Positions 22,751 through 43,072 of a DNA stretch of 64,000 nt are shown piece by piece (the first letter of the stretch is position 1; every line of letters starts with the position of its first letter). The stretch lies in assembly GCA_032595675.1 (NCBI GenBank), contig JAVQMD010000001.1, positions 1,334,640 through 1,398,639 of the forward strand, in the 5' to 3' direction. Below the pieces are notes generated by a model. That model did not search any database and was not told the DNA's origin. It saw nothing but the letters and a program-made list of their open reading frames with translations. Source of the stretch: Candidatus Electrothrix rattekaaiensis. GTDB lineage: Bacteria > Desulfobacterota > Desulfobulbia > Desulfobulbales > Desulfobulbaceae. The position numbers and the translations under genes were made by a program.

Positions 22751-23821
22751 CTATGCCGCTGTTACATCCAGCACATCCACCAGCCTGTCGTTGTAGTCAT
22801 TGCGGATCATACTCCATAAGTCGAGATAATGATCCACCCTGATCTCCAGGCTGCTGACTGCTGAACCGGCAAAGCCCGGAAGACTGTATGTCCCGTTCGC
22901 GGTCACCGCCACTGCGTCGCCTGATGCCCCTTGTTCTTCCATATCAAGCAGCGAGAACAGCAGCCGCTCCCTGGTCAGATCCTGAATGACCTGAATGCGC
23001 AGGGTCTCGTCCGCCGTGAACGTACCGCCGGTGATGACAGCATTGGGCACAGCCTCCTTACTGCTCAGGATACCGGTCTCATGGCCGAGAGATATTCCTG
23101 TGACCGCCAGCGGGGTGCGTAACATCTGACCATAGGTGCCGGTGCGCAGGGTGCCGTGCTCGGTGTAATGGGTGCTGACGGAGACCGTGTACTCGTTGTT
23201 CCAGGGGTTGCTCTGGGCGGGGATGTCTGGCATAACGATGATTTCGCTGTCCGAGATCGGCCCGAAGCGGCTCTGGGTCGTGCTGCCGCTCTCGGTGCCC
23301 GCGATCACGCAGTTGCCGGTATCCTGTTTCAGGTCAAAGTAGAGGTTTTCACCGGTGAGCTGAAGCAGGCCCTGCGGATTAAGGACATCGGTGAGATCCA
23401 GGACCGTGTCCCGGGCCGTGGTGACCAGAGGCTGCTTCTGCTGCATGGGCAGGCGTTCAAAGCGGGCGTCCCGGCACAACCGCTCAAGAAAGTGAGGATT
23501 GACCCGGCTGTTGATATGCAGGGATTCATCCAGAGGGGGCAGCGGGTCTTCCGGGCTGTTCAGTCGGCCAGTACAGGAGAGGGACCAGCTGAAACTGCCC
23601 GTCTTGGTCACCTGCTCGCCGTTGATGAGCCGGATCAGGGCAACCTCGTCCTCGGCATTCAGGATGGTCAGGATATCGGCCTTGTTGAAATTGGGATGAC
23701 GCAGGGCGATATCCGCAGCCAGGTCTTCAGTGTCTGCCGAGTTGCGGGGCGTGATCAGAACGCGGTAGGACCGGGGTGTGGTGAGGGCGTTGGGCACCAC
23801 CCGCCAGAGTACAGTTGCCAT
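22751..23821 (-). CDS. Putative HU-like DNA-binding protein with Ig-like DUF4469 domain
   Basis: I do not recognise this 356-residue protein with certainty. The N-terminal ~110 residues (WRVVPNALTTPRSYRVLIT, DIALRHPNFNKADILTILN, KTGSFSWSLSCTGRLN) resemble the HU-like domain of PF14848. These proteins are often paired with a C-terminal Ig-like DUF4469 domain, which the strand-rich tail (VIQDLTRERLLFSL, YSLPGFAGSAVSSLEIRVDHY) could be. That is a family recollection, not a search. There is no signal peptide or membrane span. A 23-bp near-palindromic tandem array lies upstream and may be its binding site or promoter context. A nucleoid or repeat-binding role is only an inference. Confidence 0.5.
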   Translation of the reverse strand: MATVLWRVVPNALTTPRSYRVLITPRNSADTEDLAADIALRHPNFNKADILTILNAEDEVALIRLINGEQVTKTGSFSWSLSCTGRLNSPEDPLPPLDESLHINSRVNPHFLERLCRDARFERLPMQQKQPLVTTARDTVLDLTDVLNPQGLLQLTGENLYFDLKQDTGNCVIAGTESGSTTQSRFGPISDSEIIVMPDIPAQSNPWNNEYTVSVSTHYTEHGTLRTGTYGQMLRTPLAVTGISLGHETGILSSKEAVPNAVITGGTFTADETLRIQVIQDLTRERLLFSLLDMEEQGASGDAVAVTANGTYSLPGFAGSAVSSLEIRVDHYLDLWSMIRNDYNDRLVDVLDVTAA

Positions 23822-23948
23822 AATACACCTCCTGTTCCATTTAAGGATTTGAGATAATTGAATGAACCGTCTTCAACGCATCCTAAAACGCTGGCAGGAG
23901 ACTGTCAAGCCTTTTCCGCATCTTTTCTCAATAAACTGCGCCCCTTGG

Positions 23949-24134
23949 TTGCATGAGAATGCAACTCCTGCGTCGCATGCGTATGGAACTGTCCGTTGCA
24001 TACGCATGGAACGACCTGTTGCATGGGAATGGAACTCCCGGTCGCATTAGAATGGAACAAAGCGTTGCATGGGAATGGAACAAAGCGTTGCATGGGAATG
24101 GAACAAAGCGTTGCATGAGCATGCAACCGGGAGG
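23949..24134. repeat. Tandem array of eight ~23-bp near-palindromic units
   Basis: Eight units of 23-24 bp start at 23949, 23973, 23996, 24019, 24042, 24065, 24088 and 24111. The consensus is close to TTGCATGGGAATGGAAC plus a variable 6-bp tail; units 6 and 7 are identical. The outer units (23949 and 24111) are nearly perfect palindromes (TTGCATG...CATGCAA). The period is not a multiple of three, so it is not a coding repeat. It lies between the TPR gene stop and the HU/Ig-like gene start, within about 130-310 bp of the latter's ATG. Confidence 0.9.
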
Positions 24135-24196
24135 CGGTGCGGGCAAAGCCACCCGGCGGGTTGCACCGGGCTGGTGAATAGTGCTGTCTGCTGTCT

Positions 24197-24284
24197 GTAG
24201 GGGGAGACCCCTGTGTCTCCCCGGAAACCAGCACGGGCAGGCACGGGGATTTCAGCACGGGCAAACACGGGGATTTGCCCCTAC
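24197..24284. repeat. Composite of GC-rich palindromic repeats overlapping the TPR gene stop
   Basis: 24197-24223 is GTAGGGGGAGACC with a GTGTCTCCCC arm. 24232-24250 is a partial unit (CACGGGCAGGCACGGGG). 24253-24284 read on the minus strand is GTAGGGGCAAATCCCC followed by GTGTTTGCCCGTGCTG. The TAG stop codon of the TPR gene is part of the last unit. These are relatives of the palindromes at 1374, 14796, 20978 and 48929. Confidence 0.75.
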
Positions 24285-25279
24285 CGGCCCTTGATCTCCG
24301 CCCGCAGCTCTGCCAATCCCTCGCGCCATTCCTTCAAGGAAGGATGATCAATGGCCTTGGCAAGCTCCACCGCCCGGCTGATGTACTGCTCCGCCTTGGC
24401 AAGGTCGCCCTGATCCTTGTAGATCCAGCCGATGTTCCAGCTCGTCACCGCTTCTCCGTATCTATTGCCTATTTCCTGCTGGATTGCCAAACTCTGCTTG
24501 TAATACTGTAACGCCTTGGCATTATCACCTCGTGCCTGGTAAATCATGCCGATGTTGTTCAGAGAATTATCTTCCCCTGCCTTATCACCGATCTCTTGCC
24601 TGATCTCCAGACTCTGCTCCAGATACTTGAGGGCCGTGTCGTAGTCGCCCCGTGCATCGTAAATCCCGGCGATGTTGTTCAGGGTGGTGCCTTCCTGGGA
24701 CTTATCCCCGATCTCTTGGCTGATGTCCAGGCTCTGGTCCAGATACTTGAGGGCCGTGTCATACTCGCCCCGTGCATGGTAAATCAGGCCGATGTTGTTC
24801 AGGGTCATGCCTTCCCCGGCTCGGTCATTGATCTCCTGGTATAGAGCAAGGCTCTGCTCATACAGGGGCAGTGCTTCACTGTAACGGGAGATGCGGTACA
24901 GATTATAGCCTGCCTCATGCAGATAGTAGGCCCGATCCTTCTTCTCCCCCTCCGGCAGCAGGGCAGCCGCCTTTTGCCAATACTCTGCCGCCTTGGCATA
25001 GCGCAACTGTACTTCCTGCAACTTGGCCTGATCAGCATTGGTTGCCGCCGCACTGCCGCCTGTGGTGGATGCGCTGTTCTGCTCCGGCGGCAGGCTTGCC
25101 TCGGGCCAGAAATACCATGAGGCAAGAGCAATCGCGGCTGCAACGATCAGTGAAAGCGCATAAACTCCCGCACCACTCCACGTCACCTCTGGGTGGCTCC
25201 GTAACCACCGCAGCTTCTGCTTGACCTTTTCCTGTTTACCCGCAGCTTCCTCGTCCTTGTTGTCGCATTGCTCGTTCAT
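24281..25279 (-). CDS. Membrane-anchored TPR-repeat protein
   Basis: The 332-residue protein has a charged N-terminal cytoplasmic segment and one membrane span at about residues 38-60 (AGVYALSLIVAAAIALASWYF). A low-complexity Ser/Ala linker and then five to six TPR units (about residues 90-325) follow. The units are of the TPR_12/kinesin-light-chain type: LNNIGLIYHARGEYDTALKY and LDQSLDISQEIGDK recur with a 40-residue period. The matching 120-bp DNA repeats at about 24600-24840 are strongly conserved, indicating recent tandem duplication. The function is a protein-protein scaffold in the periplasm or cytoplasm; the partner is unknown. Its stop codon lies inside a palindromic repeat. Confidence 0.8.
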   Translation of the reverse strand: MNEQCDNKDEEAAGKQEKVKQKLRWLRSHPEVTWSGAGVYALSLIVAAAIALASWYFWPEASLPPEQNSASTTGGSAAATNADQAKLQEVQLRYAKAAEYWQKAAALLPEGEKKDRAYYLHEAGYNLYRISRYSEALPLYEQSLALYQEINDRAGEGMTLNNIGLIYHARGEYDTALKYLDQSLDISQEIGDKSQEGTTLNNIAGIYDARGDYDTALKYLEQSLEIRQEIGDKAGEDNSLNNIGMIYQARGDNAKALQYYKQSLAIQQEIGNRYGEAVTSWNIGWIYKDQGDLAKAEQYISRAVELAKAIDHPSLKEWREGLAELRAEIKGR

Positions 25280-39031: not shown

Positions 39032-39534
39032 CAGCATTCTCCTTGTGTTGTGTCTGATGTATTTTGAGGCTTGTTGAGCACCCAAGTCAGTTCATTTCGG
39101 TCGTAAACGGTCAGTTCAAAGTCTCTTGTCATTGCAATGGCACCAAAGGGACAGGCTTCCACGCAGAGTCCGCAAAAGGCACACTGAGAAATTCGGTAGA
39201 CATATTTTCCGAGCACCTTACGCCCGCTGAGATCCTTGGTCGACAGGACTGAGATTGAACCGTTTGGACAGGCTTTTTCACAAATCCCGCAGGCTGTACA
39301 GGCGTTTTCATTGTTTTCATCGTGCGGCATGGACAGAGGTCCGCGAAAGCGTTCGAACATCTTCAGAGTATCCCGATTTTCCGGGTACTGCTGGGTGATG
39401 ACGGTCTTAGGGTTAAGAAAATATTTTATGGTGATGTCCATTCCCTGAATCAGAGAAGAGAATCCCGTAAAAACTTTACGCAGGTAGCGGCTGCTGTATT
39501 CCAGCAGGTTTTCTTTGGGGACGGTTTCTTTCAT
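39031..39534 (-). CDS. nuoI: NADH-quinone oxidoreductase subunit I (2[4Fe-4S])
   Basis: The 167-residue subunit carries clusters N6a and N6b. The two ligand motifs are CTACGICEKACPNG (about residues 81-94) and CAFCGLCVEACPFGAIAMT (about 120-138). The N-terminal basic and amphipathic helices (SRYLRKVFTGFSSLIQGMDIT) dock it to the membrane arm, and YPENRDTLKMFERFRGPLSM is conserved before the first cluster. Clusters of this subunit pass electrons to NuoB and quinone. It starts 61 bp after the nuoH stop. Confidence 0.96.
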   Translation of the reverse strand: MKETVPKENLLEYSSRYLRKVFTGFSSLIQGMDITIKYFLNPKTVITQQYPENRDTLKMFERFRGPLSMPHDENNENACTACGICEKACPNGSISVLSTKDLSGRKVLGKYVYRISQCAFCGLCVEACPFGAIAMTRDFELTVYDRNELTWVLNKPQNTSDTTQGEC

Positions 39535-42675: not shown

Positions 42676-43072
42676 GTTGGCTCCTTTTTATGATGCAGCG
42701 GAAACAAGAATAAACGATTGCGAACTCTATGAACTCACGGAACTCCTTATTCAGTTTTTTATTCCGATGCTGTGAAAGATGAAAGTGTAACTTCATAAAT
42801 AGATGTAGTTTCTTTTTTCAGGCTAACTTGTATTCTGGTTATTCATTTTTAAAAAAGTAGGTTGGCTCAAAAAAAAGAAAAGAACAAGCAGTTACTCTTT
42901 ATTATTAACATTGACTTTTCTCTCTGTCGATATTAATTATTGGTAACCTGTCAGAGTAATTTTTATATTTGTTAAACTATAAACTATAAACTATAAACTA
43001 TAAACTATGGGGCCGGTAAACTTTACTTGCGTTTTTTACCTGCCGGTACCGCAATAAGAGTCGGAGGAAATA
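42676..43072. other. Intergenic region upstream of the CZB gene
   Basis: The 397-bp AT-rich gap separates divergent genes. It contains TTGACT at 42911 with TATTAA-type hexamers downstream (a weak promoter candidate) and a heptamer tandem repeat at 42974-43008. Just after the repeat is an imperfect hairpin (GCCGGTAAA and TTTACC-TGCCGGT). A GGAGG sits before the CZB ATG. Confidence 0.5.
42974..43008. repeat. Five tandem copies of AAACTAT
   Basis: Five perfect 7-bp units lie 65-99 bp upstream of the CZB protein start. Each unit contains a TATAAA-like step (CTATAAAC), so copy number could alter promoter spacing. Such perfect short arrays are prone to slipped-strand changes. Confidence 0.9.

Follow-up and report, generated by a model that had tools for sequence, protein, structure and literature searches.

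The window, by which we mean the whole 64,000-nucleotide stretch of DNA analysed here, lies in a 4.48-Mb genome and carries, on its minus strand, a gene for an HU-like protein with a tandem array of near-palindromes directly upstream. The features of the locus, and the domains of the encoded protein, are as follows:

22751-23821, minus strand: HU-like gene, 356 aa, a member of a multi-copy family
Residues ~28-116 of its product: HU domain
Residues ~128-237 of its product: putative Ig-like domain, with further beta strands after it
23826-23833, minus strand: ribosome-binding site AGGAGGTG, read from the sequence
23880-23885, minus strand: -10 element TAGGAT, at a 17-bp spacer from the -35 element
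23903-23908, minus strand: -35 element TTGACA belonging to the HU-like gene; the array begins 39 bp away (17+23, to within 1 bp)
23948-24127, no strand assigned: array of eight 18-bp near-palindromes, GTTGCAT-NNNN-ATGGAAC on the plus strand, with spacers of 5-6 nt
24281-25279, minus strand: TPR gene beyond the array, codirectional with the HU-like gene

The neighbours at this locus are guaB, the TPR gene and an MFS gene (guaB and the MFS gene were named by reading). An earlier, sequence-only reading had delimited an array beside an HU-like gene at 22751-24134; that interval stands as gene plus array, but the array alone occupies only 23948-24127. Its eight units start at 23948, 23972, 23995, 24018, 24041, 24064, 24087 and 24110 and are 18 bp each, giving one step of 24 bp and then six of 23 bp. 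At up to three mismatches GTTGCATGGGAATGGAAC has eight matches in the window, all inside the array, against 0.14 expected, and none of 100 shuffled windows reached eight, which bears out the eight units of about 23 bp previously proposed upstream of the gene. Units 6 and 7, said to be identical, are so with their 5-nt tail included (units 4, 6 and 7 share one core sequence), and the end units (23948-23965 and 24110-24127), described as near-perfect palindromes, pair at all seven arm positions; arm position 4 is mismatched in all six interior units, and position 3 as well in those two of them that start GTCGCAT. The suggestion that 23 bp is close to two helical turns, with bound proteins facing the same side, does not survive the arithmetic: at 10.5 bp per turn 23 bp makes 2.19 turns, so that successive sites are rotated by ~69 degrees and do not lie strictly on one face.

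The 4-nt centres of the units come in reverse-complement pairs (TCTA/TAGA, ACTC/GAGT, TCTC/GAGA and GCGT/ACGC) in the window array and at loci L014, L015, L016 and L029-L032, and the mismatch at arm position 4 mostly keeps the same orientation while the centres flip, as if centres had been inverted within their arms. Across 46 units (31 distinct), 82.0% of cells were paired as RNA, compared with 79.8% after shuffling (a level reached by one shuffle in 500), and seven cells were doubly changed, against 3.2 in shuffles (1 of 500), a slight arm covariation expected of any palindromic site; arm position 4 was unpaired in 23 of the 31 distinct units. A role as RNA hairpin is unlikely because the array sits upstream of the promoter; a search of the window against Rfam at gathering thresholds returned no match. 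Spacers of 5-6 nt, where ~20 bases or more are required, rule out a CRISPR array. Elsewhere in the window, a sliding scan likewise gave a score of 26 to a chance stretch at 39416 (period 25, with unlike units), and a perfect array of the heptamer TAAACTA (5.1 copies) lies at 42973-43008. Between the array and the TPR gene, stretches of 24195-24300 recur as dispersed repeats: a query of 471 bases that includes them finds matches in each of the eight genomes of the genus, with 17 in the window's own genome.

The HU-like protein and its distribution

The N-terminus of the window protein scores 26.8 bits against Pfam HU-DNA_bdg, under the cut-off of 30. Among 53 aligned family members (E<=0.01), HU-DNA_bdg is found in 35, DUF4469 in 32 and HU-HIG in 17, the window protein having no DUF4469 match of its own. 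The family profile retrieves structure 4fmr at E 6e-5, whereas plain HU/IHF chains reach no better than E 0.015. In an AlphaFold model of the window protein (mean pLDDT 91.1, pTM 0.62) the top structure match is again 4fmr (Foldseek E 2e-11), which is a putative DNA-binding protein from Bacteroides vulgatus; superposition on 4fmr gives Z 12.3 but an rmsd of 17.0 over 218 aligned residues, and model residues 28-116 superpose on HU 5lvt with Z 9.5 and an rmsd of 4.2 over 84. The 35 members with a Pfam match and the alignment with 5lvt point to a predicted HU-type DNA-binding domain at the N-terminus. Its helices (residues 27-68) are the most variable of six segments of the family (mean entropy 1.99), residues 106-127 coming second (1.88); the value for residues 128-242 is 1.41. 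No transposase domain was found among the aligned members.

Of 242 genomes in the order, 12 gave a match to the family profile (E<=1e-20), seven of them from the window's genus and five from g10, another genus of the same taxonomic family; no other genus gave a match, and the copies in a genome are usually many. Matches to the window protein, fragments included, number 14 in its own genome, 24 in G004, 20 in G007, 19 in G001, 14 in G002, 7 in G003, 2 in G006 and 1 in G005 (69% complete). One contig of G002 equals QYLO01000092.1 over the 8,000 bases compared, identifying that genome as Candidatus Electrothrix gigas AU1_5; as a genus-mate, it places the window's genome in the genus of that cable bacterium, and we infer that g10 also consists of cable bacteria. 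Among the 73 genomes of the taxonomic family, 12 gave arrays of the window's motif class: five belong to the window's genus and five to g10, while the other two, from elsewhere, have a weak single match each. Save for those two, the protein family (searched order-wide) and the arrays (searched family-wide) are found in one and the same pair of genera. The profile search scored no more than 8 places per genome and the array search no more than 89, which makes the numbers of copies and arrays minimum values. Outside the genus, six genomes contain exact units, each isolated and probably due to chance; a backwards control also matches single places. The window protein had no match among the plasmids and phages searched, 13 stretches of viral contigs fitted a pattern with none confirmed, and DUF4469 was found in none of 14 control genomes.

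Upstream repeats and promoter register

Fetched loci yielded 74 distinct HU-like genes, 71 with enough upstream DNA for analysis; the set omits start-less fragments, genes under 140 aa and unfetched genes, counts orthologues of different genomes separately, and represents g10 only by loci returned by the array and family-profile searches. In 60 of the 71, a lag of 23 was the strongest of all lags from 14 to 40 upstream of the gene; downstream this held for none of 68. The mean best self-match upstream was 46.6 of 69 positions at lag 23 and 21.9-24.3 at every other lag. Upstream stretches, for which alone significance was computed, were significant for lags of 22-24 at p<=0.01, the smallest p possible in this test, in 64 of 71 genes, and the prospect raised in the sequence-only reading that homologous genes might always lack arrays does not hold. 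Palindromic arrays were detected upstream in 41 of 71 genes and downstream in 2 of 68 at p<=0.01 (50 of 71 and 7 of 68 at p<=0.05); the lag test is the cleaner of the two, as the palindrome score was devised after several arrays had been seen. Five of the 71 genes (L059, L066, L139, L163 and L194) gave neither signal at 0.05.

An exact-motif search had returned only one HU-like gene with an array in the window's genome, a result overturned by a double-unit covariance model and a motif-free search, in which the arrays of other HU-like genes proved to be different palindromes. Those at HU-like genes of the same genome include GTATGCCCCTGCGCATA, GAAAGGATCGTTCCTACC, CCCGATAGCACTATCGAG, GTTCATAGCACTATAAAC and TTTCCACTATAGTGCAAC, and in one genome ten different motifs precede ten HU-like genes (p 0.01 each). 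The number of tandem sites per array ranges from four to ten.

These arrays stand in register with a strong promoter of sigma70 type. Exact TTGACA-N17-TA occurs at -80 to -95 from the ATG in 64 of 73 HU-like genes (65 allowing one mismatch), and the gap between the -35 element and the nearest unit clusters at 17, 40, 63, 86 and 109. A gap of 17+23k, within 2 bp, was found for 37 of 46 genes, and for 19 of 28 motif clusters against 6.1 expected, the value of 17 having been picked after the data were seen; a Rayleigh test without preset gap gave p=1.6e-4 over the 28 clusters at period 23, with period 22 about as good. The sites, as in an operator array, are at fixed positions relative to the HU-gene promoter. 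A unit at gap 17 would be centred near -62 if transcription starts ~7 bp after the -10 element, which we take to be the place of classical class I activator sites.

Arrays at other loci and the matching of motif to protein

Ten cable-bacterial genomes hold at least 32 array loci of the window's motif class (as grouped by us), of which eight precede an HU-like gene: those of the window, L103-L107, L119 and L124. All eight, among 33 array loci examined, have the promoter at a gap of 17, 39 or 63 (L119 in the form TTGATA); exact TTGACA-N17-TA was found at none of the other 25 within 260 bp on either side, and L029, L115, L122 and L127 have weaker promoter-like matches at 130-224 bp. Correspondingly, 22 examined of the 24 non-HU arrays of this class in cable genomes are without an intact promoter of HU type. 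At gap 40 the mrp locus (L014, L015) carries GTGACA-N18-TGTAAT and, alone among the loci compared, it shares the flank GATGCGGAAAAGGCNTGACAGT with the window; the promoter-like sequence may be the trace of a lost HU-like gene, GATGCGGAAAAGGCNTGACAGT representing the promoter region left behind. In the mrp locus of the window's own genome (L015 3464-5562), transposase-like reading frames, judged by eye, replace the TPR gene found in G002 (L014).

Arrays of one motif occur at two to four places in the window's genome. That genome has at least four array loci of the window's motif class in its 4.48 Mb, and among the matches listed 17 of 20 places with no or one mismatch lie inside arrays, leaving few solitary units. 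Units of GTATGCC type form an HU-linked array in the same genome (G000:C1:957558) and arrays at C1:886420 and C1:1250877, with a few single one-mismatch places (backwards control, no places); those of AAASTAC type form an HU-linked array and one at C2:611866, with a few single places (backwards control, 10 places against 12). Array neighbours include NB-ARC/TPR genes (L104, L122), TPR genes (L014, L108, L110) and a caspase-WD40 gene (L031). In two genomes a GTTSCAY-class array stands 67 or 73 bp from the start of an LRR-Roc-COR gene (L016 5229-5385 and L112 3239-3348), with no HU-type promoter found within 260 bp. At L118 (3260-3346) an array occupies the short gap between codirectional kdpB-like and kdpC-like genes, named by reading.

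The surroundings of HU-like genes were scanned for neighbours of at least 100 aa, covering 58 of 65 on the upstream side and 61 of 67 on the downstream side; 73 families in total matched among the 5' neighbours and 65 among the 3' neighbours. TPR repeats occur in the 5' neighbour at 12 of 58 loci and in the 3' neighbour at 1 of 61. Among the 25 commonest neighbour families the only recurring regulator is RNPP_C, a TPR-containing regulator class (3 of 58). The region upstream of guaB (1,518 bp; 772 bp in G003) lacks both HU-like gene and array in all five readable relatives, where the gene directly upstream, judged by eye, is the MFS gene in G006 and G002, a TPR gene in G003 and another gene in G004 and G007; the contig of G001 ends 313 bp upstream of guaB, and G005 has no guaB match.

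The 47 array-bearing HU-like genes fall into 29 motif groups, with motifs that differ between paralogues and are common to close orthologues. Where HU domains are at least 0.9 identical, 94% of the pairs (18 in number) have a motif in common; the share is 30% of 10 pairs at 0.8-0.9, 11% of 28 at 0.7-0.8, 5% of 100 at 0.6-0.7 and 7% of 55 at 0.5-0.6, and below 0.5 not one of 870 pairs has a common motif. Sharing extends across genera (L132 with L183; L187 with the L055 group). Overall, protein and motif correlate only weakly (Mantel 0.13, p=0.003), and the HU domain is not singled out, since the C-terminal part correlates about equally (0.11, p=0.008). G001 and G002 have GTTCCAT-type arrays, with exactly that motif at none of their examined HU-like genes; an HU-like protein of GTTCCAC type may serve these arrays.

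Proposed function and known systems

We consider it probable that the array is a cis-regulatory operator array of the adjacent HU-like gene, bound by the HU-like protein itself. An operator for the adjacent protein had been proposed from the window alone, and the comparative data lend that idea support, with a repeat upstream of 64 of 71 HU-like genes and in register with the promoter, with gene family and arrays in one pair of genera (two weak single array matches apart), and with gene and array alike missing upstream of guaB in the five readable relatives. The HU-like protein, probably as a dimer, would bind its own palindromes in a lock-and-key pair, and a row of bound, bent sites would feed back on the protein's own promoter; positive feedback seems slightly likelier than repression, given that the nearest unit position lies near -62. 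The few arrays of the same motif elsewhere in the genome would be either further targets or remnants of lost HU-like genes. As the motif changes with the protein subfamily and no other partner regulator was seen to recur, the HU-like protein is the simplest candidate for the binder, and the pattern suggests a private binding code by which each such protein regulates the gene that encodes it. Weighing on the other side are the 24 of 32 motif-class arrays found in cable genomes away from HU-like genes, the five genes with neither repeat signal, the weak correlation of motif with protein, the GTTCCAT-type arrays of G001 and G002, the six Bacteroidota-type genes at which no array was detected, and the usually weak sequence specificity of HU proteins, which are known mainly as benders of DNA. 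Position and register could also simply be inherited, the genes being paralogues; the change of motif at constant register argues against plain inheritance, although orthologues are not independent.

Alternatively, some other regulator, encoded elsewhere, could act on the HU-like gene through the array, with the HU-like protein as mere output, and indeed the register and promoter data indicate regulation without pointing to either binder; ten motifs before ten HU-like genes of one genome would, however, call for about as many regulators, the motif follows the HU subfamily even across both genera, and apart from RNPP_C the commonest neighbour families offer no recurrent candidate, all of which makes this account unlikely. 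Mobile palindromic repeats of REP/BIME type, spread between genes and present here by chance, would explain why so many loci of the motif class are away from HU-like genes, many of them between convergent genes, why unit number differs between loci and why HU-like gene and array were apparently gained or lost at guaB. The promoter register and the family-wide occurrence of upstream repeats argue against a passive repeat, as do the many different motifs involved, and REP, BIME or REPIN elements would be expected as many dispersed, often single or paired copies, where the motif-class loci found in the window's 4.48-Mb genome number at least four, with few solitary units; we regard such an origin as improbable. 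Still less credible, and very doubtful in our judgement, is that the HU-like protein occupies the array chiefly as a centromere-like site, or as one that organises the nucleoid, and regulates genes only secondarily; the centromere-like site, the other idea of the sequence-only reading, finds no support in these data. One-motif arrays at two to four genomic places together with an HU-type protein would suit it, but the arrays at HU-like genes are tied to the promoter at fixed steps, and about ten motifs per genome would be odd for partition.

The operator reading, in which the HU-like protein binds its own array, also permits a broader and far more tentative proposal, which we think rather unlikely as a whole: that many cable-bacterial genomes contain some ten or more mutually orthogonal pairs of HU-like protein and array, a private DNA address system arisen by duplication, acting as self-activating switches with conflict genes among those included. 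Protein and 23-bp palindrome would evolve in step, with period and promoter register held constant. If so, each pair, given self-activating feedback, could act as an on/off switch, and the arrays beside NB-ARC/TPR, LRR-Roc-COR and caspase-WD40 genes would put conflict genes under such switches, so that the cells of one filament could differ. From one HU-type fold there have seemingly arisen many subfamilies that differ in site sequence; with their 29 motif groups they would be ready-made protein/site pairs for reading a recognition code and would give cable bacteria a range of candidate gene switches.

Literature searches of an open-licence library returned no paper describing arrays of this kind, and a term search of PMC7159879 gave no match. 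In overall layout the closest known proteins are the HU-DUF4469 and HU-HIG proteins of Bacteroidota (PF14848, PF14734, PF18291; 4fmr, BVU_2165), which place an HU domain before an Ig-like domain, as the window protein may do too. The cable-bacterial proteins, at ~355 aa, have an extra C-terminal beta part, whereas four Parabacteroides HU-DUF4469 genes encode ~254 aa; and the cable-bacterial genes come with 23-bp arrays, whereas six Bacteroidota-type genes tested had no palindromic array upstream (p>=0.16, by palindrome score only and with two phage starts guessed). Two gut phage scaffolds encode a 4fmr-type protein, as do four plasmid records that all come from a single Parabacteroides distasonis strain.

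Burroughs and colleagues are said to have described, in 2017, a lineage-specific expansion of HU-DUF4469 and HU-HIG proteins in Bacteroidetes. In the RAYT/REPIN system, protein paralogues are each tied to their own palindromic repeat, and the HU-like paralogues of cable bacteria are also each associated with their own; they differ from that system in having no transposase domain found, tandem 23-bp arrays in promoter register and few copies. Autoregulated transcription factors with class I upstream sites follow the geometry of CRP. They resemble the present case in their palindromic sites upstream of the -35 element and fixed steps from the promoter, the nearest possible centre here lying at about -62; unlike them, the arrays of cable bacteria comprise four to ten tandem sites, involve an HU-type protein and have a site sequence specific to each subfamily.
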